Below are positions 4,668 to 21,443 of a stretch of 27,497 nt of DNA, one piece after another. This stretch comes from a virus. The stretch's first letter is position 1. Each line of letters opens with the position of its first letter. Under the pieces are notes generated by a model. It worked only from the letters and a program-made list of their open reading frames with translations, had not been told where the DNA came from and did not search any database. The stretch lies in IMG/VR virus record IMGVR_UViG_3300033148_007023, positions 1 to 27,497 of that record. One strand, given 5' to 3'. The translations under genes and the position numbers were made by a program.

Positions 4668-5474
4668 ATGCCCGAATTCTTTGATAGTTATTCGTTTATA
4701 AGCCGTGGTATGGCGTCTATGTTGATACAACGATGCCATTATTCTAAAGTGATGCCACGCATTACAAAGGTTTGTATTGGTGGATGGGTTAATAATAAGC
4801 TTATGGGGGTAATGACGCTTGGGTATGGTACAAGGCCGCTTCACACAATAAGAAACATGTTCCCCGGATTAACTTCAAAGGACTATCTTGAGTTGGGCAA
4901 GTTTTGCATAGATGATGTTATGCCACGAAATAGTGAAAGCCAGTTTCTTTCGCGAGCAGTAAAGATGATTAAGTCGGAATTTCCGTCGATATTGCTTCTC
5001 TATTCGTGGGCAGATGGTATTTTAGGTAAACCAGGATATGTATATCAAGCTGCCAATTGGTTTTATGGTGGATTTATCTGGACTGAGTGTTACTTGGATA
5101 AGAATGGCTGGCGTGTTCATCCTAGGACATTACAAGGTTTGACTTCTACTGGAACCGGTCTTGGCCCCCGCGATTTTGAGACCACTACCTCTGCTGGTTT
5201 CGTTCGATGGCGTGGGAAGCAGTTCCGTTACTGTCTTCCATTATGTGGTAAGCGTCGGTGGCGCGAGCTTCAGAACGAGAGTACGATAGAATGGAGGCGT
5301 GATAATTATCCTAAAGATGTAGATTGTGTGTGGCGTGAGCAAGTTGGGATTGGAGATTATGTTGAGAGGGGATCAATTCCGTGGACTGGAACATTTTATC
5401 CTCAAAAACAAACAACTCAGCTTTCATTATTTGATGAGCAGGCGAGCGTGTGCCCGGAGGTGGGGTCATCGTGA
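4668..5474 (+). CDS. Mom-like DNA base-modification enzyme (GNAT fold)
   Basis: 268 residues. The order of conserved blocks fits phage Mu Mom and its relatives: QRCHYSKV near the N-terminus, YLELGKFCIDD, RNSESQFLSRAVK, and LYSWADGILGKPGYVYQAAN followed by W-F-Y-G-G. Mu Mom adds a carbamoylmethyl group to adenine N6 in phage DNA, protecting it from host restriction. Substrate and product here are not determined. About 70 residues beyond the usual core (from roughly residue 190) hold a Trp-rich tail. The ribosome site is weak (AAAAG). The final 31 bases of the gene overlap the tRNA-like element at 5444-5514, so its C-terminus (about the last ten residues) may not be conserved. Confidence 0.7.
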   Translation: MPEFFDSYSFISRGMASMLIQRCHYSKVMPRITKVCIGGWVNNKLMGVMTLGYGTRPLHTIRNMFPGLTSKDYLELGKFCIDDVMPRNSESQFLSRAVKMIKSEFPSILLLYSWADGILGKPGYVYQAANWFYGGFIWTECYLDKNGWRVHPRTLQGLTSTGTGLGPRDFETTTSAGFVRWRGKQFRYCLPLCGKRRWRELQNESTIEWRRDNYPKDVDCVWREQVGIGDYVERGSIPWTGTFYPQKQTTQLSLFDEQASVCPEVGSS

Positions 5475-6020: not shown

Positions 6021-6969
6021 AAACGTACGGGGCTGGTGGGGCATAGGTTATAATTTCGTTGTAGATTGCAATGTTCCGGATACTATTTGGGTTGGCAGAC
6101 CACTCACCAGAACCGGAGCACATGCACTTATAGAACCAGAGGCAGCATATCTTGGACCGAGATGGGCAAAGTATCCGAGGCAATATCCCAACATTCATGG
6201 TGTTGGAGTAGTAATACCGGGAAGCTATGACCTAGACTCAATTGATGAGGATTGTTATGATACTTTGGCGAGGGTTGTGGCTATAATTTGTGATAAGTGG
6301 GATATTGCTCCGAGGGCAATCGGCTATCATGAAGAAGTAAAACACAAGATTTGTCCGGGTTCGCACTACAATTTCCCGAAGAGAGACAATCTTCTTAACC
6401 TTGTTGCCCAATATCGTGGCATATCAAGCGAGTTCAAATTCCAAATGAATGACGACGAACCCATACCGGCTACTGTAATAGACGGAACCTCATTTATTGG
6501 TAATGTATATGCCGAGGCCATTGCTAGAAAGTATAATCTTTCTCGGATACCTGAAACAGATGGAGTGCCGATAAAGTCATTTCTACAAATGAATGGACTT
6601 CCCCCGCCACAATATATTAGTGAACACAAACTAATAACCGGTTATACTCCAGACTACTGGACGAATGTTCGACTTATAGTGAATGATGTCCCGGCTGGTA
6701 GGGTTTGGTTGGTAAATGGACATGGGGCTGGCAAGGCAGAGGATATAGCTGACGTTTCTGGTTGGCCCAAGAGTTCTCTGCCCGTGCATGGGAATGGAAT
6801 GGTATACTTTCGGGAACTTTATGAGACATTTCCCGACAAGGTTGTTCTCAGCACAGAATATTGGACATCACAGCGCAAGGTATACTTATACATGGATGGG
6901 CCTGATTTCTGTGCCAAAGAATCTAATGCTACTACTGAAGCTAGTGCCGACGAACGTGAACATACGTAG
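5983..6969 (+). CDS. N-acetylmuramoyl-L-alanine amidase (amidase_2 / T7-lysozyme family) endolysin, N-terminally broken
   Basis: Cuts the amide between MurNAc and the stem peptide. Visible family blocks: HRYHKNVRGWWGIGYNFVVD, GRPLTRTGAHA, NIHGVGVVIPGSYD, and GYHEEVKHKICPG. In the last, His and Cys are 8 residues apart, like zinc ligands H122 and C130 of T7 lysozyme. The first zinc histidine strand is missing from this frame: a TAG closes the frame at 5977, and the only start is GTG 5983 with a poor ribosome site. The missing strand appears in the overlapping frame at 5910-6020. The C-terminal half (from about residue 175) contains no recognised wall-binding domain, though it is long and aromatic-rich. 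Placed directly before the holin, as expected for a lysis cassette. Confidence 0.75.
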   Translation: MYLSVIGIHRYHKNVRGWWGIGYNFVVDCNVPDTIWVGRPLTRTGAHALIEPEAAYLGPRWAKYPRQYPNIHGVGVVIPGSYDLDSIDEDCYDTLARVVAIICDKWDIAPRAIGYHEEVKHKICPGSHYNFPKRDNLLNLVAQYRGISSEFKFQMNDDEPIPATVIDGTSFIGNVYAEAIARKYNLSRIPETDGVPIKSFLQMNGLPPPQYISEHKLITGYTPDYWTNVRLIVNDVPAGRVWLVNGHGAGKAEDIADVSGWPKSSLPVHGNGMVYFRELYETFPDKVVLSTEYWTSQRKVYLYMDGPDFCAKESNATTEASADEREHT

Positions 6970-6982
6970 GCTTCTGATAGGG

Positions 6983-7525
6983 ATGTTGAAAAGGATGGGT
7001 AATTACTTCGAGTCTTTGTTTGGGAACAAACTACAGGTAGTTATCGCCGGGGTGCTTGCATTTCTCGCCGGTATTGGTTTCAACGTCGAGTCTGGCGAAC
7101 ACATTCCGTATATACTCCTATGTGCTTCTGTCGCCATTCTGTATCTCATCGACCTTGTTATAGGCTCTATGGCTGCGTGGAAGAGGCAAGAGTTCTCGTC
7201 AAGAGGCTTTGGCAGAACACTTGAGAAACTGGTTGTATATTCCATGGCGACGCTTGGTATGACAGCATTCGGAGTGATAATAGCAGCATTACCATGTGCT
7301 TCGGGTGTTGCAGTCCCGGTTGTGTTTATGATTGCTAGTGCCAGAATGTTCTTTTCGTGGTGTCTTATTCTTATAGGGTTTGCCGAGTTTATTAGTGTGA
7401 CTGAAAATTTATCGGAGCTTGGGTTTAAGCTTCCGAGTAAGTTTATGGAGTATCTAGACAAGATGAAAAAGAAGGTGTGGGAGACGTTACCGATAAACAA
7501 TGGACCGAGAGAAGACGAAGAATGA
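6983..7525 (+). CDS. holin (phage_holin_4 / toxin-secretion holin family)
   Basis: 180 residues, predominantly membrane. About four hydrophobic segments: VVIAGVLAFLAGIGF, ILLCASVAILYLIDLVIG, VVYSMATLGMTAFGVIIAAL and VVFMIASARMFFSWCLILIG. YLIDLVIGSMAAWK-x4-SSRGFGRTLEKL matches the D-x2-x-G-x2-A-x-K ... SS-x-G ... K signature of this holin family. A charged C-terminal tail follows (PINNGPREDEE). It forms the pores that release the amidase or collapse the membrane. ATG 6983 is chosen, with TAGG about 12 nt upstream; ATG 6995 (AAAAGG adjoining) is possible. Overlaps the next gene by 26 bp. Confidence 0.75.
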   Translation: MLKRMGNYFESLFGNKLQVVIAGVLAFLAGIGFNVESGEHIPYILLCASVAILYLIDLVIGSMAAWKRQEFSSRGFGRTLEKLVVYSMATLGMTAFGVIIAALPCASGVAVPVVFMIASARMFFSWCLILIGFAEFISVTENLSELGFKLPSKFMEYLDKMKKKVWETLPINNGPREDEE

Positions 7526-7811
7526 ACCGGTTGAAGGATGGATTGCTCGGGCCAGGCGTGGGAAGACCAAGGCATACAAAGCTCAGGCCTATCTCAACAA
7601 GGAAGAGGAAGAGTGGTTCCGAAAGTTCATGGAAGAGAACAACCTTGGTGTTAGCGCGGCTACCAGATTGTGTATCAGACACGTTATGGTCGAGCACAAG
7701 ATGAAGGAGCTTGGTCGAGCCCGGCTTCGCGAGAATGAAAAGAAAAACGGTGTCAATGTTGGGGCATTAGTTGGGCTGAGAGGCGACAATGGGCGACCTG
7801 ACGAAGACTGA
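7500..7811 (+). CDS. small basic protein, possible DNA-binding helix protein
   Basis: 103 residues, strongly basic N- and C-terminal thirds. The middle, YLNKEEEEWFRKFMEENNLGVSAATRLCIRHVM, has the strand-helix-helix spacing of ribbon-helix-helix (MobC/Arc-like) proteins, but the match is by eye only. It lies between holin and small terminase and overlaps both, so it may be a packaging accessory or regulator. ATG 7500 lies within the holin 3' end. Confidence 0.5.
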   Translation: MDREKTKNEPVEGWIARARRGKTKAYKAQAYLNKEEEEWFRKFMEENNLGVSAATRLCIRHVMVEHKMKELGRARLRENEKKNGVNVGALVGLRGDNGRPDED

Positions 7812-12531: not shown

Positions 12532-15500
12532 ATGAAGCTATGCCCAAAAGCGAAGACGGAAGAGTGTTCTGCCAACGGTTTTTCATACCCTCCCGCCGTA
12601 GAGGCGCTCAATGACATCATAAACGCTATTGAGCAGTGTGGAGAGATTGAGTCGCTTGCCGAGGACATTGCATGTCCATATCTTGAATGGGTTTGTGAAC
12701 AGGGAGGGGATGACCGCGACAGCTTGCGCAAGGCGAGGGAAGAAAGAAGCAGGAAGTATGGCATAGAAGTTCGCGACGATGGCAACCTTACCAAGCCAAG
12801 CAAGTATAAGGACATACCGGACGAATCGTTTGGCGACCCCGTGAATTATGCTTATCCTATAGACAAAGACCATGTAAGGGCTGCTGTAAGCTATTTCCCG
12901 AAAAAAGGAAACTATGACAAGTATTCACAGACTAGCTCTAGGCGCGTCATTTGGAATAGGATAATTGCAGCCGCCAAGAAAAATGGTATAAAGCATGAGT
13001 ACAATCCGGATAGTCCAGTTGACAAGCTCCTGAACCCAACACTAAAGCGATGGGCCAAGAAAAACGCTGGTATGGGTGCAGAAAGCATAGAGGCAGCTTC
13101 GTCTGCAATAGCCGAAGCGACCAGCATAGAAGAATTGCTTGCCATTGAGGCGGATATATCTGTTTCAATGGAAGAGTCTGACGACGCTGAAGAATGGACC
13201 AGTGTCCTATCAGAAACTAAGGGTAAGATGAAGGCCATAGCAGAAGAGCGTGGTCTTAAAGAACTTACCGACTCGTATATAGACAAGCCGCAAGTCAAAG
13301 AGTCCAAGGACGGACGACTCCTTGTTACCGGAACCTTTGCACGGGTAAATGTGCCGACTGCCAATAAACGGGTGTATCCTCAGTCCGTATGGAATGCCAA
13401 TGAGGAGCACATAGCCAATATGCTTCTTATGGGCAAACTGGTAGGACAAGACAATCATCCGTGGGGCGGGACAGTCTTGGATAGAATAAACATAGTCTTC
13501 CAAGACATTTGGCAGGATGGAGACGAGATGAAGTATGAGGCCATAGTGCCCAAGACGGTATCCGGTATGAACTTGCAGGAACTCATAGATGTCGGAGTAG
13601 GCATTGAATTGAGTACTCGCGGGTTTGGCTCCGTAGAAGAGGGCGAGTGGAACAACGAGGATGGCTACCTTATCGTTCAGGATGACTATCTGCTTCACGC
13701 GATAGATACCCTGATGGATGGTGCTTCTCCGGGAACATCCATGAAGCCCAAAGAAGAAGCAACAGAACCGCCCCACACTACGGAGGGGCAAGAGACGAAC
13801 ACACCCAAGGAGGAACGGACTCAGATGCGAAATAGAATAGTCAAGATGCTAGAACAGGCCGTTCGTACTGCCGGTGCTCTGGGGCTTGCAGAAGTCTCGG
13901 AGTCTGTGCAGGCCAAGCTCGACGCTCTGAAGGCTATTGAAGTTGATGAGGGCGAAGAGTTTGATAAGGCTATTGAGGAGGCCCTGTCCGCACTCGACGA
14001 GGCCGCCGAGAAGTTTGAGAGTGCTGGTAGCGCGGGCGAAGAGAAGGAAAAGACCTCTACCAATGAGGGTAATGGCGACGGCAGCGGTGTTGCTGTGGAA
14101 GACGCCATTAAGCGCCTTGAGGCTCTGGAGAATGCGGCCAAGGAGCGCGAACAGCGCGAGCAGGCCATAGCTGAGCGCGACGCCAAGGTCGCCGAGGTTA
14201 TGGAGAGCGCCGAAGGTCTCTCCGAGTCTTATGCGAGCAAGCTGCGTGCTGCGCTGGAAAGTTGTTCTGTTGCCGAAGAGGTGCAGAAGACGTATGACCG
14301 GCTCTATCCGGTTATGAAGGAAGCCTCTGAGGCCGTAGAGGCCGGGCAGTTCGCGGTCCACATCCGCAAGGATGAGGAAACCCAGAGCATCACGGGTGAG
14401 GCCCAGCTTCGCCCGCAGACCACCGGTGAGGTGCTCAACGGTCTGGTTGAGGGCCTGAAGAAGCGCACTGGATGGGAAGACACTGGCGAGGCCAATGCCT
14501 CCAACAAGATATGGGTGTTCAAGCAGCTTATCAACAACTATGTTAAGGAACATCCGTATTATGTTGAGTGCATGACCCGAGAGGGGTTTAAGCGGCACAA
14601 GGCAATGATTGAGTCTACTCAGACCAGCGACGTTGCCGTTGGTGCGCCGTTTATCCTGCCCATATTCAGGGAGCTTTTCCCCAAGCTCATCGCCCTGGAA
14701 CTTTGTTCGGTGCAGCCGATGAGTGTCCCTGACGCCAAGGTCTTCTTCTACGATGCGAAGACCGACCCCGGCGGGCTGGCGCTTGATACCGAGGCCAACT
14801 TCGACAGTACCTATGCCGACCATACGGAGGGCTCGGCGTCTGCGAAGATAAAGCTGGTTATCAGTTCTGCCAGCGTTTCGGCGGATGCCAAGTCGGTAGA
14901 GGCGGAGTGGACCACCGAAATTGCGCAGGACCTGCAGGCATATCACAATATGAATGCTGAGTCCGAGCTTATGGCGAGTGCCGCCGACGAAATCGCCCGT
15001 GAAATTAACTACACCATCCTTGAAGACATGCGGGCCAATGCCAGCGGTAGCACGTCGCGCACGTTCAAGACTACGGCCCCGTCCGGCTACACTGGCCGAG
15101 AGTGGGACCAGCGTCTTGCCGACTTCATCAGTCGCATGAGCGGCGATATTGCCGAGAAGACCTATCGGCGACCGAACTGGCTGGTTATGGACCCGACGAC
15201 CGCTAGCCGTCTGTCGGCGCTGAACACGTTCGTATCGGCTGCGCCGGACGAGATGAACGCGTTCACTGTCGATGTTGCTTATGAGGGTGTTCTGAGTAAC
15301 CGATGGAAGGTTTACTCGGTTGGCTGGTTCACTAACAACACCATCATGTGCGGCTATAAGGGCGCGGACTGGAAGGAGACCTGCTACATCTACGCTCCCT
15401 ACATCCCCGCTTATATATCGCCGCAGTCGTATAACACCTCGACGCTGGTTGCGTCGCGGGCCGTCATGACGAGGTTCGCCAAGTACCTGGTAAATAGCGA

Positions 15501-15552
15501 TCTTCTCGGAAGACTCACTATTTCCTCGGGCACGGGTGAGGACCTCACGTAG
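12532..15552 (+). CDS. prohead protease-scaffold-major capsid fusion protein
   Basis: 1006 residues in one frame. Residues 1-80 are Cys-containing and unassigned. Residues 95-165 (NYAYPIDKDHVRAAVSYF, YSQTSSRRVIWNRIIAAAKK) form a small helical domain common in phage head proteins. Residues about 262-370 are a T4 gp21-like serine protease: LLVTGTFARVNVPTANKRVY, catalytic His309 in GQDNHPWGG and Ser361 in IELSTRGFGS. Residues 430-620 are Glu/Ala/Lys-rich coiled coil, the expected scaffold. Residues about 640-1006 are a T4 gp23-type HK97-fold capsid protein (IFRELFPKLIALELCSVQPM, CGYKGADWKETCYIYAPYIP, TRFAKYL). LVE-G at 638-641 fits the T4 protease cleavage rule (L/I)xE|(G/A) and would free the capsid domain. 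From codon 432 onward third positions become markedly richer in G/C, as in highly expressed genes. Confidence 0.85.
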   Translation: MKLCPKAKTEECSANGFSYPPAVEALNDIINAIEQCGEIESLAEDIACPYLEWVCEQGGDDRDSLRKAREERSRKYGIEVRDDGNLTKPSKYKDIPDESFGDPVNYAYPIDKDHVRAAVSYFPKKGNYDKYSQTSSRRVIWNRIIAAAKKNGIKHEYNPDSPVDKLLNPTLKRWAKKNAGMGAESIEAASSAIAEATSIEELLAIEADISVSMEESDDAEEWTSVLSETKGKMKAIAEERGLKELTDSYIDKPQVKESKDGRLLVTGTFARVNVPTANKRVYPQSVWNANEEHIANMLLMGKLVGQDNHPWGGTVLDRINIVFQDIWQDGDEMKYEAIVPKTVSGMNLQELIDVGVGIELSTRGFGSVEEGEWNNEDGYLIVQDDYLLHAIDTLMDGASPGTSMKPKEEATEPPHTTEGQETNTPKEERTQMRNRIVKMLEQAVRTAGALGLAEVSESVQAKLDALKAIEVDEGEEFDKAIEEALSALDEAAEKFESAGSAGEEKEKTSTNEGNGDGSGVAVEDAIKRLEALENAAKEREQREQAIAERDAKVAEVMESAEGLSESYASKLRAALESCSVAEEVQKTYDRLYPVMKEASEAVEAGQFAVHIRKDEETQSITGEAQLRPQTTGEVLNGLVEGLKKRTGWEDTGEANASNKIWVFKQLINNYVKEHPYYVECMTREGFKRHKAMIESTQTSDVAVGAPFILPIFRELFPKLIALELCSVQPMSVPDAKVFFYDAKTDPGGLALDTEANFDSTYADHTEGSASAKIKLVISSASVSADAKSVEAEWTTEIAQDLQAYHNMNAESELMASAADEIAREINYTILEDMRANASGSTSRTFKTTAPSGYTGREWDQRLADFISRMSGDIAEKTYRRPNWLVMDPTTASRLSALNTFVSAAPDEMNAFTVDVAYEGVLSNRWKVYSVGWFTNNTIMCGYKGADWKETCYIYAPYIPAYISPQSYNTSTLVASRAVMTRFAKYLVNSDLLGRLTISSGTGEDLT
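13807..13827 (+). promoter_or_regulatory. internal ribosome site and in-frame start for scaffold-capsid protein
   Basis: AAGGAGG (13807-13813), 11-nt spacer, ATG (13825-13827) inside the fusion gene, in frame at codon 432. It lies exactly at the junction between protease and scaffold, and where codon usage changes. It would give a 575-residue scaffold-capsid protein in excess of the protease-containing form, like the nested Nu3 start in lambda gene C. Confidence 0.65.
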
Positions 15553-15591
15553 TAACATTTCGTGAGCCTTATGAACGCTTGGCCGCATAAA

Positions 15592-15642
15592 GTCTAGTCT
15601 GGGTTGGGGGAGATTCTCGGTCGCCTCCAACTCGGACTAGAC
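15592..15642 (+). terminator. hairpin after the capsid gene, no U-tract
   Basis: GTCTAGTC (15592-15599) pairs with GACTAGAC (15635-15642). An inner stem TTGGGGG/CCTCCAA forms beyond a small internal loop. No T-run follows; AAAGGA, the ribosome site of the next small gene, comes immediately after. It may stabilise or attenuate the capsid transcript. Confidence 0.5.
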
Positions 15643-15657
15643 AAAGGACTTGATATT

Positions 15658-15771
15658 ATGGCCCGTAAGGGCGTACCAAAGCGAGACGGTAGTGGTCGTG
15701 GTATTCGTAAGAACAGGGGACGTGGTGGGTGCAAACCCACAAGGAAGACCGGCAAGGGAAGAAACAGATAG
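15658..15771 (+). CDS. 37-residue Gly/Arg/Lys-rich protein
   Basis: Begins MARKGVPKRDGSGRGIRKN and ends KTGKGRNR, with 16 Arg/Lys and 11 Gly of 37. AAAGGA lies 9 nt before the ATG, just after the hairpin. Tiny basic G-R-G proteins like this recur near capsid genes in phage genomes. A role binding packaged DNA or capsid interior is possible but unproven. It stops 7 bp before the tRNA. Confidence 0.6.
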   Translation: MARKGVPKRDGSGRGIRKNRGRGGCKPTRKTGKGRNR

Positions 15772-15778
15772 TTATTGG

Positions 15779-15852
15779 TGCGGGGTAGTGAAGTGGCCTC
15801 ACGGGACCCTCATACGGTTCAGAGCCGGGTTCGATTCCCGGCCCCGCCACCA
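15779..15852 (+). tRNA. tRNA with anticodon CAT (Met or Ile2), encoded CCA
   Basis: 74 nt. Acceptor TGCGGGG/CCCCGCC has 6 pairs and a T1-C72 mismatch. D-arm GTGA-AGTGGCC-TCAC; anticodon arm GGACC-CTCATAC-GGTTC with U33 and CAT; variable AGAG; T-arm CCGGG-TTCGATT-CCCGG; then ACCA. An unpaired 1-72 is an initiator hallmark, but the three G-C pairs of the initiator anticodon stem are absent and 11-24 is the elongator type (T-A). It may be an elongator Met or a lysidine-modified Ile tRNA. No intron. Confidence 0.9.
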
Positions 15853-15855
15853 ATA

Positions 15856-15870
15856 TTCTCACCGCTGAGA
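15856..15870. repeat. second copy of the 15-bp hairpin repeat
   Basis: Identical to 1796-1810 (TTCTCACCGCTGAGA) and located 3 bp after the tRNA CCA. Stem TCTCA/TGAGA with a CCGC loop. It may be a processing or transcript-end element for the tRNA. Confidence 0.4.
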
Positions 15871-15893
15871 GAAAGTAGATTGGAGATAATTAT

Positions 15894-16223
15894 ATGAGGC
15901 TTACAGTACATGATATACGAGAATTGAAGATAGATCTTGAAGACATGCTGCCGTTGGCACGTGATGTCGAGTGGGAATACGGCAAGGGCGGGGAGATAAC
16001 TAAACTAGTTGTCACCAGTTATACTGAAGACCTTGGGCGGCGATGGGCGAAGCGAATTGGGGAAGAAGTTTGTCTCTCAATGTCCTTTTCTATTCATGGT
16101 TGTCTGGGTGGATGTAAGACATATGTTACTCAAGGAAAGAAGTTTGTCATAAAGAATGTTATTGTGGGTTCGGATAAAGAAGAAAGGTCGATGAAGGAAA
16201 AGATAGTTCTTGTAGCTGTGTGA
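15894..16223 (+). CDS. hypothetical protein
   Basis: 109 residues. No family recognised. It has an N-terminal helical part (VHDIRELKIDLEDMLPLARDV) followed by alternating strands. The segment SFSIHGCLGGCKTY contains two Cys three residues apart. The ribosome site GGAG is 9 nt before ATG. It lies between the tRNA and the structured leader of the GT4 gene, transcribed with the structural genes. Confidence 0.5.
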   Translation: MRLTVHDIRELKIDLEDMLPLARDVEWEYGKGGEITKLVVTSYTEDLGRRWAKRIGEEVCLSMSFSIHGCLGGCKTYVTQGKKFVIKNVIVGSDKEERSMKEKIVLVAV

Positions 16224-16250
16224 TGTGGGTAGCTGTTAGGTCAATCTTTC

Positions 16251-16380
16251 GTTGTAGCTGGGAGAGCACCAACAGATATTGGCCCCCGCTTGGTTAGTCG
16301 AAAAAACAGGGCGCATACTTCCCTGCGTCCGGCCTCCCAGCGCCCCGAGCGGGGGCTAGAAACCAAGCTGGAGGCCAGTC
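16251..16380 (+). ncRNA. structured leader RNA with pseudoknot and competing pairings
   Basis: No gene is present in these 157 bases before the GT4 start. GCCCCCGCT (16282-16290) pairs over 9 bp with AGCGGGGGC (16348-16356). GCTTGGTT (16288-16295) pairs over 8 bp with AACCAAGC (16361-16368), giving the C-D-C'-D' order of a pseudoknot. CAGGG/CCCTG (16307-16325) is an inner hairpin. GGCCTCCCAGC (16331-16341) can pair with GCTGGAGGCC (16367-16376), burying the Shine-Dalgarno GGAGG of the next gene, or instead with upstream GCTGGGAG (16257-16264), freeing it. This looks like a translational switch or a folded functional RNA; no known riboswitch or ribozyme class is recognised. Confidence 0.55.
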
Positions 16381-17415
16381 ATGGGGAAGTTGAGGTTTAG
16401 ATTTCAAGCTCCGTTTACTATGAAGACCGGGTACGGCAGGCTGGCCTGCTGGATTGCCCGGTCGTTTCTACACCGACGAGACACCGACGTAGAGATATTT
16501 GCACATGGCGACAAGATACAGGACGATGTTCCACCGGAGGTAATAGAGGCGGCGAGAAAGCCTGCTAACTACCGTGGACTCGGTATCATATTCTCATACC
16601 CTAACCATTTGCATTACCTTCCAACCAATATAAAGGTAGTCTATACAGTTTGGGAGACCGACAGGCTACCCAATGAGTACATTCGTGCACTTGGTGAGGC
16701 GGACTTGATTCTGACCCAAAGTGAGTTTTGCAGGTCGCTGTTTTCTTCTAGTGTTGATGTGCGCGTAGAAAACGTTGGGGCCGGTGTTGACACAGATTTC
16801 TTTACCTATGGTGACACCAGAGATGGTTCTGTATTGAGGATAGGCACGTGTGGTGTAATGTCGCCGAGAAAGGGTATAGATGTTTTAGCTAAGGCGATAG
16901 CCCATTTCAAGGGCAGAAACGATATTGAGTTTCATATAAAGACCAGAGACACTAGGTGGATGCCCGATATAAATCAGAGCAACGTCTTCATATACGATAT
17001 AGACTGGACTAATGAACAGATGAGGGACTTTTACAGGTCGATAGACTTCTTCATTTCTCCGTCTCGGGGCGAAGGTTTCGGGTTGTGTCCGATAGAGGCT
17101 GCATGTTGTGGAACTCCGGGTGCTGTGACAAACTGGTCTGGGCCGAGGGATTACATAGGAGAATATATACAGCCGATAGAGTGGACGTGTCTCAACAGGC
17201 CGCATAGCGGCGCATTTCGTTTTGAACATGTTGGCAAATGGGCCGAACCATCGCTTCAGCACCTTGTTCATGTAATCGAGACTATGTATAATAATGGTGG
17301 GCCCACTGAGGAATACCGACGTAGAGTATCGAAGTGGGCGCGCGGGAATTATGCTATAGACCTCGTGACTGACAGAATACACGCTAGTCTGAGGCGGATA
17401 TATCGTGAACGATGA
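16381..17415 (+). CDS. glycosyltransferase family 4 (GT-B fold)
   Basis: 344 residues. The N-terminal acceptor half (FRFQAPFTMKTGYGRLACWI) is followed by a hinge and the nucleotide-sugar half with RIGTCGVMSPRKGIDVLAKA and SRGEGFGLCPIEAACCGTP. The last is the GT4 E-x7-E signature that binds the donor. It transfers a sugar from a nucleotide-sugar to an acceptor unknown here. Placement between capsid and head-tail connector genes suggests a virion protein as acceptor (inference). The ATG follows a sequesterable GGAGG and a 157-nt structured leader. The 3' end overlaps the adaptor gene by 11 bp. Confidence 0.88.
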   Translation: MGKLRFRFQAPFTMKTGYGRLACWIARSFLHRRDTDVEIFAHGDKIQDDVPPEVIEAARKPANYRGLGIIFSYPNHLHYLPTNIKVVYTVWETDRLPNEYIRALGEADLILTQSEFCRSLFSSSVDVRVENVGAGVDTDFFTYGDTRDGSVLRIGTCGVMSPRKGIDVLAKAIAHFKGRNDIEFHIKTRDTRWMPDINQSNVFIYDIDWTNEQMRDFYRSIDFFISPSRGEGFGLCPIEAACCGTPGAVTNWSGPRDYIGEYIQPIEWTCLNRPHSGAFRFEHVGKWAEPSLQHLVHVIETMYNNGGPTEEYRRRVSKWARGNYAIDLVTDRIHASLRRIYRER

Positions 17416-18070
17416 CCAGCTTCTAGAAGAACTCAGAGCAAATGGGATAAGCAGTTCCCAGATTTCCGATGCCAATGTCTACATGCTTATACGCAGATTG
17501 CTTCGTTTGTATAATAGGTATCGCCCACAACTACTTCATTCCACCATAACGACTGTTGCATATCAGGGCGAGTATGACATAGATGCTGATGCTAATAGTA
17601 TTGTAGAGGTGTTCTGGGAGCCGTCTGCTACCAGTGATGTATTGGCTAGGGTGTTGACAGAGATAAAAGCTATGGAGACGGACTTCCATTATCCATCTCT
17701 TCTCAAGATACACTATGCAAAGCTGGCCTCACTTGCTGATACAGTGAATGGGAACTGGAGAATGTATGGCAGGCAGATTAGGCTTATACCCGTCCCCACT
17801 GAATCGGGCACGGTTGTCCCATACCTTTATACCAAAGGATGGGATGACTTGGACGATATTCCAATTGATGACGAAGAGCTTCTAATAGAGGGTATAGAAG
17901 TTCTTGCTCGTCGTTCGCTGGAGAGAAGCAATTCTGGCAGTGTCGGGTGGAGAGCAGGAGATTATTCAGTAGATGGTAATGCCGGTGCCCGTGGAATAGA
18001 CTCGGCCAACAGGGAATACTCCATGTTCCTTTCGCGGCTTGCCGGTGGAGCGGTTGGGGGGAGAAGCTAG
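17405..18070 (+). CDS. head-tail adaptor (connector) protein
   Basis: 221 residues. The helical N-terminus, VAYQGEYDIDADANSIVEVFW (strand pair common in phage adaptor/neck proteins), and the C-terminal helix LIEGIEVLARRSLERS followed by a Gly/Ser-rich tail fit the adaptor class that binds the portal clip (like SPP1 gp15/HK97 gp6), though larger. Assigned mainly from order: first connector gene after the capsid. GTG start 17405 lies inside the GT4 gene end. Confidence 0.55.
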   Translation: MNDDQLLEELRANGISSSQISDANVYMLIRRLLRLYNRYRPQLLHSTITTVAYQGEYDIDADANSIVEVFWEPSATSDVLARVLTEIKAMETDFHYPSLLKIHYAKLASLADTVNGNWRMYGRQIRLIPVPTESGTVVPYLYTKGWDDLDDIPIDDEELLIEGIEVLARRSLERSNSGSVGWRAGDYSVDGNAGARGIDSANREYSMFLSRLAGGAVGGRS

Positions 18071-18420
18071 TGCGTAGTGATGCATTTCTCCACACCGTAA
18101 CCATACAAACGATGTCTGTTACTTATAATGGTGGCAGGCAGAGTGTTCCCACGTGGACTGAGAGCGCAACTGGAGTGTCTGCCCTCATATCTCCGATAAG
18201 TCTAAGGTATCGTATTACAGTTCTCGGTGGGATTACTGACGAAAGACATCTTCTTTTTTTGCCCGCCGGAACCACGATAAACCGTGGGGATAGAGTGGTA
18301 GACGAGGGCACTAACGAAGTATATACTGTTGCAACGCAGCCGGTAACGTATAAAGACCCAAGAAACGCAACGGATAGTCATATGCAGTGCGAGATAACGC
18401 CACTAGATCCAGAGGAATAG
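18070..18420 (+). CDS. head-closure (stopper) protein
   Basis: 116 residues, all-beta character. ERHLLFLPAGTTINRGDRVV then EVYTVATQPV and a final MQCEITPL strand are typical of the SPP1 gp16-like stopper barrel of about 110 residues. It follows the adaptor with GTG sharing one base with the TAG stop. The protein closes the portal channel after packaging and offers the docking surface for the tail. Confidence 0.6.
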   Translation: MRSDAFLHTVTIQTMSVTYNGGRQSVPTWTESATGVSALISPISLRYRITVLGGITDERHLLFLPAGTTINRGDRVVDEGTNEVYTVATQPVTYKDPRNATDSHMQCEITPLDPEE

Positions 18421-18421
18421 C

Positions 18422-18931
18422 ATGGCAAGTCACGGTGAGGAAATAACAGAGGTGTTGTATGATATTGTAGATTGGAGTTGGTCGGGACATGGGCCAGCCC
18501 CATCATCCGTGACTATACACTCGAAGAACGAGGGCTATCCGTTGGCATTTATTGATAGAGATACAGCAAGACAACCCGCCCTATTCTTCGTCAAGGGCGA
18601 CTGGCCTGCTGTTGTTCACCACCCTAAGATAACTACGGAGACCTATAGGCTATCCATTTACATTACCGATAGACTGCCATCGAGTGGTTATCCAGAGACA
18701 TCAATTAGGCGTAAAATGGATAGCATTGTTACAAACATATTGGCATCAAAGGATACTGATACTCCGACATACAATCTTACTTACCCTATGGGATTGAACT
18801 ATATAGAGGACATCAGGTGGATTGGGACTTTCATGGAAGACGAGGTGCAGGAGCTTATAAATGCGCTTGAACTTGGGCTTGTGTCTGCCATGTCAATGTG
18901 GGAAATACAGGCATACGGGACACAGCGATGA
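18422..18931 (+). CDS. neck / tail-terminator-like protein
   Basis: 169 residues. Alpha/beta pattern with TYRLSIYITDRLPS, a long helix ETSIRRKMDSIVTNILAS and a final helix VQELINALELGLVSAM. Size and place (third gene after the capsid, before the gp10-like gene) suggest a tail-completion or terminator role. No diagnostic motif. One base separates it from the stopper, and its TGA overlaps the next ATG. Confidence 0.45.
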   Translation: MASHGEEITEVLYDIVDWSWSGHGPAPSSVTIHSKNEGYPLAFIDRDTARQPALFFVKGDWPAVVHHPKITTETYRLSIYITDRLPSSGYPETSIRRKMDSIVTNILASKDTDTPTYNLTYPMGLNYIEDIRWIGTFMEDEVQELINALELGLVSAMSMWEIQAYGTQR

Positions 18932-19464
18932 TTTCATTTACTTTTAGCATGAATGCCAATAGTCTGATAAACAAATACAAAGAGCGCAGGTTGATACGTT
19001 ATCCTGCTGCTGTGCAACGGTATGTCAATGGCATAACCAACGTAGCTAAGCTTAGATTTATCAGAGAATCTAGGCACAGAAGATACGTTATAGGTAAATG
19101 GGGTAAGGGATTTATAGTAACTCGTGGGAAGAAGAAGCGTCAGTATATTGGGCCATACTCAAAGAGGAGACCTATTGATAGTGGCCCGACAAAAGACTAC
19201 CAGATGAACATTCAAAGTGGTGAATATGCCTCTGGATGGTTTACTCAGGATGTTAGTTGCCCAGCGTGGGGAAGCCATGCTTATGCAAAGGGCATTGGGA
19301 ACACCGCACCACACGCCAAGTATCTTCACACTATCGGTGGGGCTGGATGGATGCGAGAGCGCCGGATAGTTCCAGTTGTGACGCGATGGGCAAGGAGAGC
19401 GTCCAGACATGGAGCTATTCAGAGACTGCATAGAAGGGCATTGGGGTTTGAAGTATCCAGATGA
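18928..19464 (+). CDS. HK97 gp10-like tail-completion protein (putative)
   Basis: 178 residues, very basic, with many Arg/Lys (KERRLIRYP, RESRHRRYVIGK, RGKKKRQY, RRIVPVVTRWARRASRHG). N-terminal helix then a compact region with Tyr/Gly-rich strands. Position just before the tail block fits the gp10-like minor tail/neck family. ATG 18928 overlaps the previous stop (ATGA) and has GGGA 9 nt upstream; a GTG at 18898 is in frame. Confidence 0.45.
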   Translation: MISFTFSMNANSLINKYKERRLIRYPAAVQRYVNGITNVAKLRFIRESRHRRYVIGKWGKGFIVTRGKKKRQYIGPYSKRRPIDSGPTKDYQMNIQSGEYASGWFTQDVSCPAWGSHAYAKGIGNTAPHAKYLHTIGGAGWMRERRIVPVVTRWARRASRHGAIQRLHRRALGFEVSR

Positions 19465-19469
19465 ATACT

Positions 19470-19485
19470 GTAGCTGGGAGGCTAC
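19470..19485 (+). promoter_or_regulatory. hairpin presenting the GT9 Shine-Dalgarno
   Basis: GTAGC-TGGGAG-GCTAC, a 5-bp stem whose loop holds most of GGGAGG; the ATG is 10 nt past the last G. The 12-mer TGTAGCTGGGAG (19469-19480) also occurs at 16253-16264 in the leader of the GT4 gene. Confidence 0.5.
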
Positions 19486-19491
19486 CGGAAT

Positions 19492-20583
19492 ATGATACGC
19501 TTCAAGACCACAGACACTCGCTTCTACGAAGACCAGCGGTTTGGCTTTGATGCTTCCAGGTATATCATCTGGAAGCATGAATGGTATATAGCCCACGACG
19601 ACTTTGAAAGGTCTCTATGTGCACTTGGAGACAATGAATTTAGGGTAGAACCATATACCCTGAACCAGTGGACCGCAAGGCAGAACGAAGATACCACCGG
19701 CAAGTCGCTTATGCTTATGTGTTGGGGGGGTATAGGCGACCTTATCAGCATGACCCCGATTTTCCGAGCACTCAGAAGAGATTATGGTCTGAAGCAACTT
19801 GTGCTTGCTGCACCGGGAACATTAAAGGCATGGTTCAGTCCATATATAGACCATGTGGTTTCATATCCGACAATGCAGACAAGGGTGCAAGCCTGCGACT
19901 ATGTGCATATGGTAGAAGATATTCTAGGCGAGATGATGCACCGCAACCTTACAGACATATTTGTTGACAACCTTGATATACATGTTCCTATTGGGGAGAG
20001 GTATCCATTCCTCAATCTTGACACGGACACCGTGAAGTATGTCAGGGAACTTCTTCCACCAAGGCGGGGCAAGTATGTAGCCATCCACTTTAAGGGTTCG
20101 GTTCCCGAAAGGTGCATACCGCTTGGGAAAACACTCGCCATAGCCAATAGGATAGCGGACGAAGGGCATACTGCAATCCTTCTCGGCAAATGGCCGGACT
20201 TGGCATCATTTGAGACTGACGATATTGGCGACAGGGTTTCGGCTAGGAACATCAAGCCCGGCGTATACAACATGTGCGGGCTGCTTGAAAATCAGGACGA
20301 GATAGCCGCCTTGATGTCGCTGATGGACTTCTTCATCGGGCCCGACTCCGGCCTTTTGCATATAGCCGGGGCGTTAGGAATACAGGGGCTTGGTATCTTC
20401 ACTGGATACGATAGTTCTATAAGAATAGGGTATTACCCTTCCATTACCGGAGTAGATGTTGACCCAAAGTATCACACCAGCAATAGGGATACATTCTTCC
20501 CGGAGGAAAAACAGCGACAGCTATATGAAGAGGCAATTGATAGCATAGATTGGGATGGTGTTGTCGGGGCGGCGATAGAATGA
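19492..20583 (+). CDS. glycosyltransferase family 9 (heptosyltransferase-like)
   Basis: 363 residues. GGIGDLISMTPIFRALRRDY is the N-terminal signature of GT9 enzymes. The C-terminal MDFFIGPDSGLLHIAGALG is their nucleotide-sugar site, and YVAIHFKGSVPERCIP matches the strand that starts the second domain. In bacteria the family adds ADP-heptose to lipopolysaccharide; the donor here is unknown. It sits between neck genes and the tail tube gene and overlaps the next glycosyltransferase by 4 bp (ATGA), so both form one inserted pair in the structural operon. Confidence 0.82.
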   Translation: MIRFKTTDTRFYEDQRFGFDASRYIIWKHEWYIAHDDFERSLCALGDNEFRVEPYTLNQWTARQNEDTTGKSLMLMCWGGIGDLISMTPIFRALRRDYGLKQLVLAAPGTLKAWFSPYIDHVVSYPTMQTRVQACDYVHMVEDILGEMMHRNLTDIFVDNLDIHVPIGERYPFLNLDTDTVKYVRELLPPRRGKYVAIHFKGSVPERCIPLGKTLAIANRIADEGHTAILLGKWPDLASFETDDIGDRVSARNIKPGVYNMCGLLENQDEIAALMSLMDFFIGPDSGLLHIAGALGIQGLGIFTGYDSSIRIGYYPSITGVDVDPKYHTSNRDTFFPEEKQRQLYEEAIDSIDWDGVVGAAIE

Positions 20584-21443
20584 ACCTAAGTGTCGGAGTG
20601 ATAGTTGTAACCTACAACAGCCTTGGGTTTGTTGAAAGGCTGATTGATGGTATTGAACACGCGGATAGCACGCCCATCGAACTCAGGCTGATAGATAATG
20701 GTTCATCTGATGGAAGCAGAGAATGGATATATAATTATGTCTTCTCACCATCTCCCATAAGAAGGCACGGCGGTTACGCCTTTAGCAAAAACACGGGCTT
20801 TACTCATGCTGTAAACAGGGGGCTAACGTACTTCCTTAACGAACCCAACATAGAATATATAGCATTGGTGAACCCAGATGTGATAATCTGTGATGATTGG
20901 ATAAGTAAACAGCTTCCAATCTTTACAGAGAATCCAACGTGCGGTATAATAGGATGTAGACAGGTTCGAGGACAGGAGATTATACATGGCGGTGGGCAGA
21001 TATATGCTGACCCACGCCCGCTGTGGGAACCAACAACTAAAGAGATAGCTCCCGGCGTCATGGTTGACGACAATGAGTTTATTACCTATTCGCGGTTTGC
21101 TCATCGCAAGGGGCACCTGAACAAAGACGCATGGAATGTTACTGAAGTAGTTCCATGGGTAACGTTTGCTTGTGTTTTTCTCAGGAAGGCGATGGTGGAA
21201 GAGATAGGCTTACTGGACGAACGGTTCTTCAACTATGCGTCGGATGCAGAATATTGTTGTAGGGCATGGAAATACAACTGGGAAGTGTGGTATACTGCTA
21301 ATGCTACAGTGTACCATCATGTTGGTGCATCAGAGGCGCTGGGAGGACAGGAAGTAAAACGGAGGAAGATAGAAGACCTAAGACTTTTCGCACAGGAGGA
21401 GCAGTCCCATGCGTCTTATTGGACACGACGTTGCATTGTTTAG
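20580..21443 (+). CDS. glycosyltransferase family 2 (GT-A fold)
   Basis: 287 residues. VGVIVVTYNSLGFVERLIDG and ELRLIDNGSSDGSREWI at the N-terminus, FSKNTGFTHAVNRGL, and ALVNPDV as the metal-binding D-x-D-equivalent strand. LLDERFFNYASDAEYCCRAW then ATVYHHVGAS is the C-terminal signature of rhamnosyl-like GT2 enzymes. It probably extends a glycan begun by the neighbouring enzymes. Starts at ATG 20580 within the GT9 stop. The last 35 bp overlap the tail tube gene, whose ribosome site AGGAGG lies inside this gene. Confidence 0.85.
   Translation: MNLSVGVIVVTYNSLGFVERLIDGIEHADSTPIELRLIDNGSSDGSREWIYNYVFSPSPIRRHGGYAFSKNTGFTHAVNRGLTYFLNEPNIEYIALVNPDVIICDDWISKQLPIFTENPTCGIIGCRQVRGQEIIHGGGQIYADPRPLWEPTTKEIAPGVMVDDNEFITYSRFAHRKGHLNKDAWNVTEVVPWVTFACVFLRKAMVEEIGLLDERFFNYASDAEYCCRAWKYNWEVWYTANATVYHHVGASEALGGQEVKRRKIEDLRLFAQEEQSHASYWTRRCIV

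Follow-up and report, generated by a model that had tools for sequence, protein, structure and literature searches.

To our knowledge, few leader RNAs are known from phages outside the model phages. In HDV-like ribozymes P1 is 7 bp long, P3 continues directly from P2, and J4/2 supplies a catalytic C. The theta ribozymes sit by phage tRNAs (PMC10879173). Pseudoknots bound by proteins serve as operators for S4, S15 and L20 (PMC10931766) and for T4 gp32 (PMC535899). The regulatory structures of rpsO mRNA vary widely between species (PMC10931766), and the knot of T4 gene 32, which regulates an ssDNA-binding protein, comprises about 28 nt followed by UUAAA repeats (PMC535899). In translational riboswitches of the preQ1 type a pseudoknot can hide the SD (PMC11625349). 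The put RNA of HK022 consists of two stem-loops in about 70 nt, putL lying just behind the promoter and putR about 270 nt in (PMC9378689).

The locus studied here lies in a virus record of 27.5 kb, analyzed over its whole length and termed the window, which carries terminase, portal, adaptor and tape-measure genes and a protease-capsid fusion. A leader stretch at 16224-16380 has a gene of 109 aa as its 5′ neighbor and a glycosyltransferase (GT) gene as its 3′ neighbor, the latter being the first gene of a run toward the tape-measure gene. The GC content of the leader region is 0.63-0.66, compared with 0.48 for the whole window. One related phage was found (see below), the 45 kb G001, with near-identical contigs G002 and G005. 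The features of the window locus are as follows.

15894-16223, + strand: upstream gene, 109 aa, no Pfam family
16223-16297, + strand: possible leader ORF of 24 codons (MWVAVRSIFRCSWESTNRYWPPLG*), in part inferred
16257-16264, + strand: 5′ strand of helix S1, GCUGGGAG (anti-anti-SD); GGGAG core conserved in G001 (6451-6455)
16265-16278, + strand: loop L1, 14 nt (12 nt in G001)
16279-16293, + strand: 5′ strand of the 15-bp helix S2, UUGGCCCCCGCUUGG; 15/15 pairs kept in G001
16294-16308, + strand: A-rich linker of 15 nt, UUAGUCGAAAAAACA; counterpart in G001 CGAAACCAACAAAGC (linker similarity alone, P = 0.055)
16309-16330, + strand: internal hairpin of 7 bp, GGGCGCA-UACUUCCC-UGCGUCC
16317-16324, + strand: ACUUCCCU; in a fully closed nested fold, possible partner of 16383-16390 at the GT start codon
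16331-16342, + strand: switch strand, of which 16334-16341 (CUCCCAGC) is the 3′ strand of S1 and 16331-16341 can alternatively pair with the GT ribosome site
16345-16359, + strand: 3′ strand of S2, CCGAGCGGGGGCUAG
16361-16368, + strand: AACCAAGC, partner of 16288-16295 (8 bp), competing with S2
16368-16378, + strand: SD region CUGGAGGCCAG, containing the GGAGG of 16370-16374 and able to pair with the switch strand
16381-17415, + strand: glycosyltransferase of GT4 type, Pfam Glyco_trans_1_4; 47% identical to G001 6740-7786

S2 comprises 15 bp when G-U pairs are included, and only one stem on the + strand of the window is stronger. Its duplex energy is −29.0 kcal/mol for 14 bp, and plain stacking gives −35.1 for 15 bp. 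S1, of 8 bp, crosses S2 to create a pseudoknot of about 103 nt, the 3′ end of which lies 21 nt before the AUG of the GT gene. A preliminary description of this DNA had listed four complementary sets, and all are found where it placed them (16282-16290/16348-16356, 16288-16295/16361-16368, 16331-16341/16368-16376 with one bulge, and 16257-16264/16334-16341). The first of these, given as a 9-bp stem, is present but longer than described, because G-U pairs extend it to the 15 bp of S2. Our own initial stem count, allowing at most one G-U pair, did not detect the 15-bp helix, so that the region seemed ordinary; an energy-based count was used instead. The second set excludes the inner half of S2. 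The 24-codon frame, possibly a leader ORF, begins in a TGATG that overlaps the stop codon of the upstream gene, and covers the 5′ strands of both S1 and S2. GTAGCTG occurs three times within 50 nt (16212, 16229 and 16254), as had been reported; the G001 leader matches the third copy only (GTAGC).

Could the knot be chance complementarity in GC-rich intergenic DNA? The elevated local GC content speaks for this, as does the nested fold of the leader, which taken alone is not unusual (z = −1.3). Against it stands the crossing pair of helices. Scored by stacking energies, S1 with S2 gives −53.7, the strongest H-type knot in the window, while the best of 20 dinucleotide-shuffled windows reached −43.4. 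On shuffling the local GC-rich stretch, none of 2000 sequences attained −53.7, the 1% level being −41.5. A geometric descriptor (short S1, long S2, L1 of 5-25, L2 of 20-60, junction of 0-9) was written after both leaders had been seen and is therefore post hoc. It has one match in the window and one in G001, both on the sense strand, and none in 1.09 Mb of shuffles, on antisense strands or in seven natural control phages. The homologous leader of G001, in which seven pairs have changed on both sides, argues in the same direction. The chance reading is largely refuted, and we consider it highly improbable.

Covariance models of Rfam 15 applied to window positions 16100-16500 gave no match that approached the gathering score, the best E value being 4.1, for unrelated families, and G001 and G002 were also without a match. 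The nearest kinds of RNA are the S4/S15/L20 operators, T4 gene 32, preQ1, put and theta, and those tested fail a defining feature. The order S1-S2-hairpin-S1′-S2′ resembles the P1-P2-P3-P1′-P2′ of the HDV-like and theta ribozymes, but the element has no room for P4 and the catalytic C of J4/2. A ribozyme of this type is rejected on a gap of 3-5 nt between the 3′ strands of S1 and S2, a linker of 15 nt from S2 to the hairpin, and the lack of an Rfam HDV match, in agreement with the earlier statement that no known riboswitch or ribozyme could be recognized. A lone tRNA-Met (CAT) is present at 15779-15852, between the capsid and GT genes; in contrast to the setting of theta ribozymes, it lies 400 nt upstream of the element and is not adjacent. 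No tRNA was found in the G001/G002 loci scanned (L002, L003 and L004). The preliminary description had named an ordinary terminator or a decayed tRNA as readings that would tell against its proposal, and neither matches. There is no intrinsic terminator (a GC hairpin followed by a T run) within 15500-16800; the tRNA models find only the tRNA-Met, and in the G001 homolog the counterpart of the D-arm-like UAGCUGGGAGAGC does not resemble a tRNA.

The E. coli rpsO (S15) and alpha-operon (S4) operators are alike in having a leader pseudoknot that lies close to the first gene's ribosome site or overlaps it, and in exerting translational control. However, the downstream gene here encodes a GT and not a ribosomal protein, which does not fit an operator of this kind; moreover the helices of 8 and 15 bp are far longer, and there is no Rfam match. 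In T4 and RB69 gene 32 a phage leader pseudoknot lies 5′ of the SD and has diverged in sequence between related phages. The present element differs in its length of about 103 nt and its GT gene, and positions 16360-16380 (AAACCAAGCUGGAGGCCAGUC) have no UUAAA repeats, so that a gene 32 operator is also rejected. PreQ1 riboswitches are small aptamers with a set consensus, whereas the element has long helices of changing sequence. With HK022 put the element shares being a structured RNA that acts in cis close to the start of a phage transcript, but two helices of 8 and 15 bp that cross within about 103 nt do not match the two adjacent stem-loops of put.

Relatives of the leader were sought by several routes. 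A search at the nucleotide level through 50,697 named phages found none with the leader region as query, and either leader alone gave only short matches there, with E values of 0.5 or worse. Viral contigs were scanned with the GT, portal, capsid, terminase and tail proteins and with the exact leader motif. This gave one related phage, as three identical or near-identical contigs, together with far relatives (L014, L015 and L019) that have neither the GT nor the element. Scans of genome contigs added L020, a phage contig from a MAG, whose GT is 37% identical. L020 has no leader; the start of its GT and the gene upstream seem to overlap. L020 (QMZP01000025.1) is filed under a Candidatus Aenigmatarchaeota MAG and has related capsid, GT and adaptor genes; it is probably a phage contig in the wrong bin.

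The best-conserved proteins of G001 and the window are 47-58% identical, and the gene order after the GT is unchanged. Before its GT gene, G001 has a knot in which 6450-6457/6519-6526 (8 bp) is crossed by 6470-6484/6532-6546 (15 bp), starting about 290 nt before the GT start and ending 193 nt from it. The geometry is shared, with helices of 8 and 15 bp, L1 of 14 and 12 nt (window and G001, respectively), a 15-nt A-rich linker, a hairpin, and a junction of 3 and 5 nt. Local alignment of the two leaders from GUAGC through S2 gives a score of 42 (P = 0.002, 1000 shuffles), and they are reciprocal best matches over both strands of the whole genomes, ranking 1 of 6022 and 1 of 3650 windows. The best match of one control phage scored 41, so the similarity of the leaders is modest, and their position before an orthologous gene carries much weight.

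All 15 pairs of S2 are kept between the window and G001, seven having changed on both sides and three on one. When the register of S2 is shifted by 1-3 columns, total pairing falls from 89% to 34-48%. The register used begins at S2, with the local alignment for the 5′ side and MAFFT for the 3′ side; applied to the full element, MAFFT sets the 5′ strand of S2 one base out of register and yields five double changes overall. In S1 both leaders keep the GGGAG/CUCCC core, with the flanking pairs changed. The internal hairpin of G001 (6 bp, loop UGUCCC) is at an equivalent position and is not alignable pair for pair with that of the window.

The independent leaders compared are two, the window and G001, and for the predicted helix the compensatory changes in S2 are direct covariation evidence, from two sequences only. 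Such changes are what the preliminary description had proposed to look for in homologous leaders. Its pseudoknot stands as a set of crossing helices beyond all shuffles, but the conserved knot is that of S1 (8 bp) with S2 (15 bp); for the second 8-bp stem (16288-16295/16361-16368) nothing comparable is seen around the G001 element. Judged from the comparison of sequences, the leader is a real, conserved and previously undescribed phage RNA, its fold kept before the homologous gene. The suggestion of a candidate new regulatory RNA is upheld in that the leader is conserved in G001 and unnamed, with regulation itself a putative role. The element is absent from Rfam, and is backed by compensatory change between phages with proteins about 50% identical.

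The CCUCC-bearing strand of S1 has an alternative partner in the GT ribosome site (GCUGGAGGCC), with which it can form 10 bp with one bulge (16331-16341/16368-16376). The calculated energy of this duplex, including G16367, is −20.9 kcal/mol, compared with −14.6 for S1. The two pairings are mutually exclusive because strand 16334-16341 is common to both, which confirms the competition of CCTCC between a GGGAG strand and the SD that had been claimed. Both cross S2, which can thus stay in place during a swap of partners. The exclusive pairing of an upstream strand or the SD that characterizes an anti-SD translational switch is therefore predicted at 16334-16341, but pairing beyond the core is not conserved in the homolog. 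In the window the flanking fit beyond the anti-SD/SD core is slightly above expectation (P = 0.023), and in G001 it is no better than chance (P = 0.51 for the GT leader and 0.33 for another leader); extra SD complementarity common to all three leaders is accordingly rejected. On folding from 16224, S1 has a probability of at most 0.03 at any length with a program that cannot form pseudoknots. A local hairpin upstream can block S1 if the transcript starts before 16254.

We also searched for upstream, anti-SD and SD strands arranged about a long helix and followed by an ORF of 60 codons or more. This three-strand layout is matched once in the window and at one place in G001, in both on the sense strand only. 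Six natural phages with a GC content of 0.48-0.61, searched on both strands (about 267 kb), gave no match, and of 50 shuffled genomes one had a match, of weaker score; in phage Mx8 (GC 0.68) chance matches do occur. A G001 leader of different sequence, 5127-5247 before an AUG at 5258, has the same three-strand layout as the window.

Our main reading, to which we assign a probability of roughly 0.4, is that translation of the GT is controlled in cis by a conserved, pseudoknotted leader, the knot keeping the ribosome site open. A translational switch would be the single likeliest mechanism, at somewhat less than even odds. S2 would be the constant helix, with S1 and the SD pairing as competitors. 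Formation of S1 would tie up the CCUCC strand and leave the GT ribosome site free (ON); with S1 opened, the freed strand would pair with the ribosome site and hide it (OFF). Candidate openers of S1 are a ribosome from the upstream gene reading through 16257-16264, late or partial transcription, and a bound protein or ligand. The state that prevails would depend on the transcript start and on whether the ribosome of the upstream gene reads on. What evolution demonstrably keeps, on the two leaders compared, is the knot, and the hiding of the ribosome site is what we infer. The proposal that the leader hides or exposes the site holds as far as the pairing itself is physically feasible and above expectation in the window; it finds no echo in the flanking fit of G001. 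With the G001 element 193 nt from the GT start and SD hiding weakly above the core, it is plausible and unproven. That these RNAs constitute a new class of phage leader, in which an anti-SD strand looped out by a long helix moves between two pseudoknots, one that frees and one that hides the ribosome site, as a switch for glycosyltransferase and tail genes, seems doubtful. If the switch is true, these genes could be timed through RNA folding alone, and the analysis defines the exact strands for mutation.

The conservation of the S1-S2 knot and not of the SD pairing would also suit a pseudoknot operator or 5′-end element that has no need of that pairing, acting as a site for a phage or ribosomal protein, a transcript shield or a ribosome standby site; the anti-SD strand would then simply follow from S1 having a GGGAG/CUCCC core. 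G001 has a promoter-like TTGCAA-17-TATGGT, and about 11 nt separate its −10 box from the start of the element, i.e., the element is at the 5′ end of the transcript and far from the GT start. The second strong knot of G001 (5127-5231) is also right behind a promoter, and the operators of S4, S15, L20 and T4 gp32 cited above provide precedents. In the window, on the other hand, no promoter is recognizable just upstream of the element, and the knot abuts an SD with an unusually good extra fit; nor did the analysis point to a candidate protein. We regard this explanation as possible, and hold it tentatively.

The promoter-like sequence in G001 would also be compatible with a processive-antitermination RNA similar to HK022 put, heading the run from the GT to the tape-measure gene and acting on RNA polymerase. 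A long gene run lies downstream in both phages, and the positions of putL and putR match the variable distance to the first gene seen here. Yet put is two stem-loops of about 70 nt, no Rfam family matches, and no terminator to be read through was identified, and this explanation is improbable. A separate intergenic small RNA, rather than a GT leader, is more improbable still. The 193 nt that follow the G001 element leave room for a GT promoter, but in the window the element extends right up to the GT ribosome site and leaves no such room, and no terminator follows it.

The second G001 knot (5127-5231, locus L005) is the strongest of that genome at −60.0, with 14 bp crossed by 13 bp, directly behind a sigma-70-like promoter (TTGACT-17-TATACT). 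Its CUCCUUGAC has two possible partners, the 5′ strand and the SD preceding the next gene (GUUAAGGAG, 5239-5247), and the protein encoded from the AUG at 5258 has a T5orf172/MUG113 domain. As a sequence homolog of the window leader it is rejected (P = 0.39). G001 also contains seven near-identical copies of a palindrome, AATAGTGGAACCGGTTCCACTATT, at 4947, 6551, 8712, 20400, 27395, 31831 and 41795, which is absent from the window. One copy directly follows the knot of the GT leader and another lies about 120-140 nt before the 5127 promoter; the palindrome may be a control site, such as a repressor operator.

Three different glycosyltransferases (GT4-like, family 9 and family 2) are encoded among the head-tail genes of the window at 16381-21443, and all three have counterparts in G001 in unchanged order. 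A single reading frame of 1006 aa (12532-15552) has Prohead protease (Peptidase_S77), DUF6582 and T4-type major capsid (Gp23) domains, and both of its halves also match in one frame of G001. Directly 3′ of the capsid gene stop the window has a 19-bp hairpin (15592-15642), and G001 has a 20-bp hairpin beyond its capsid gene (33054-33097); these hairpins perhaps function in mRNA processing or protection of the 3′ end.
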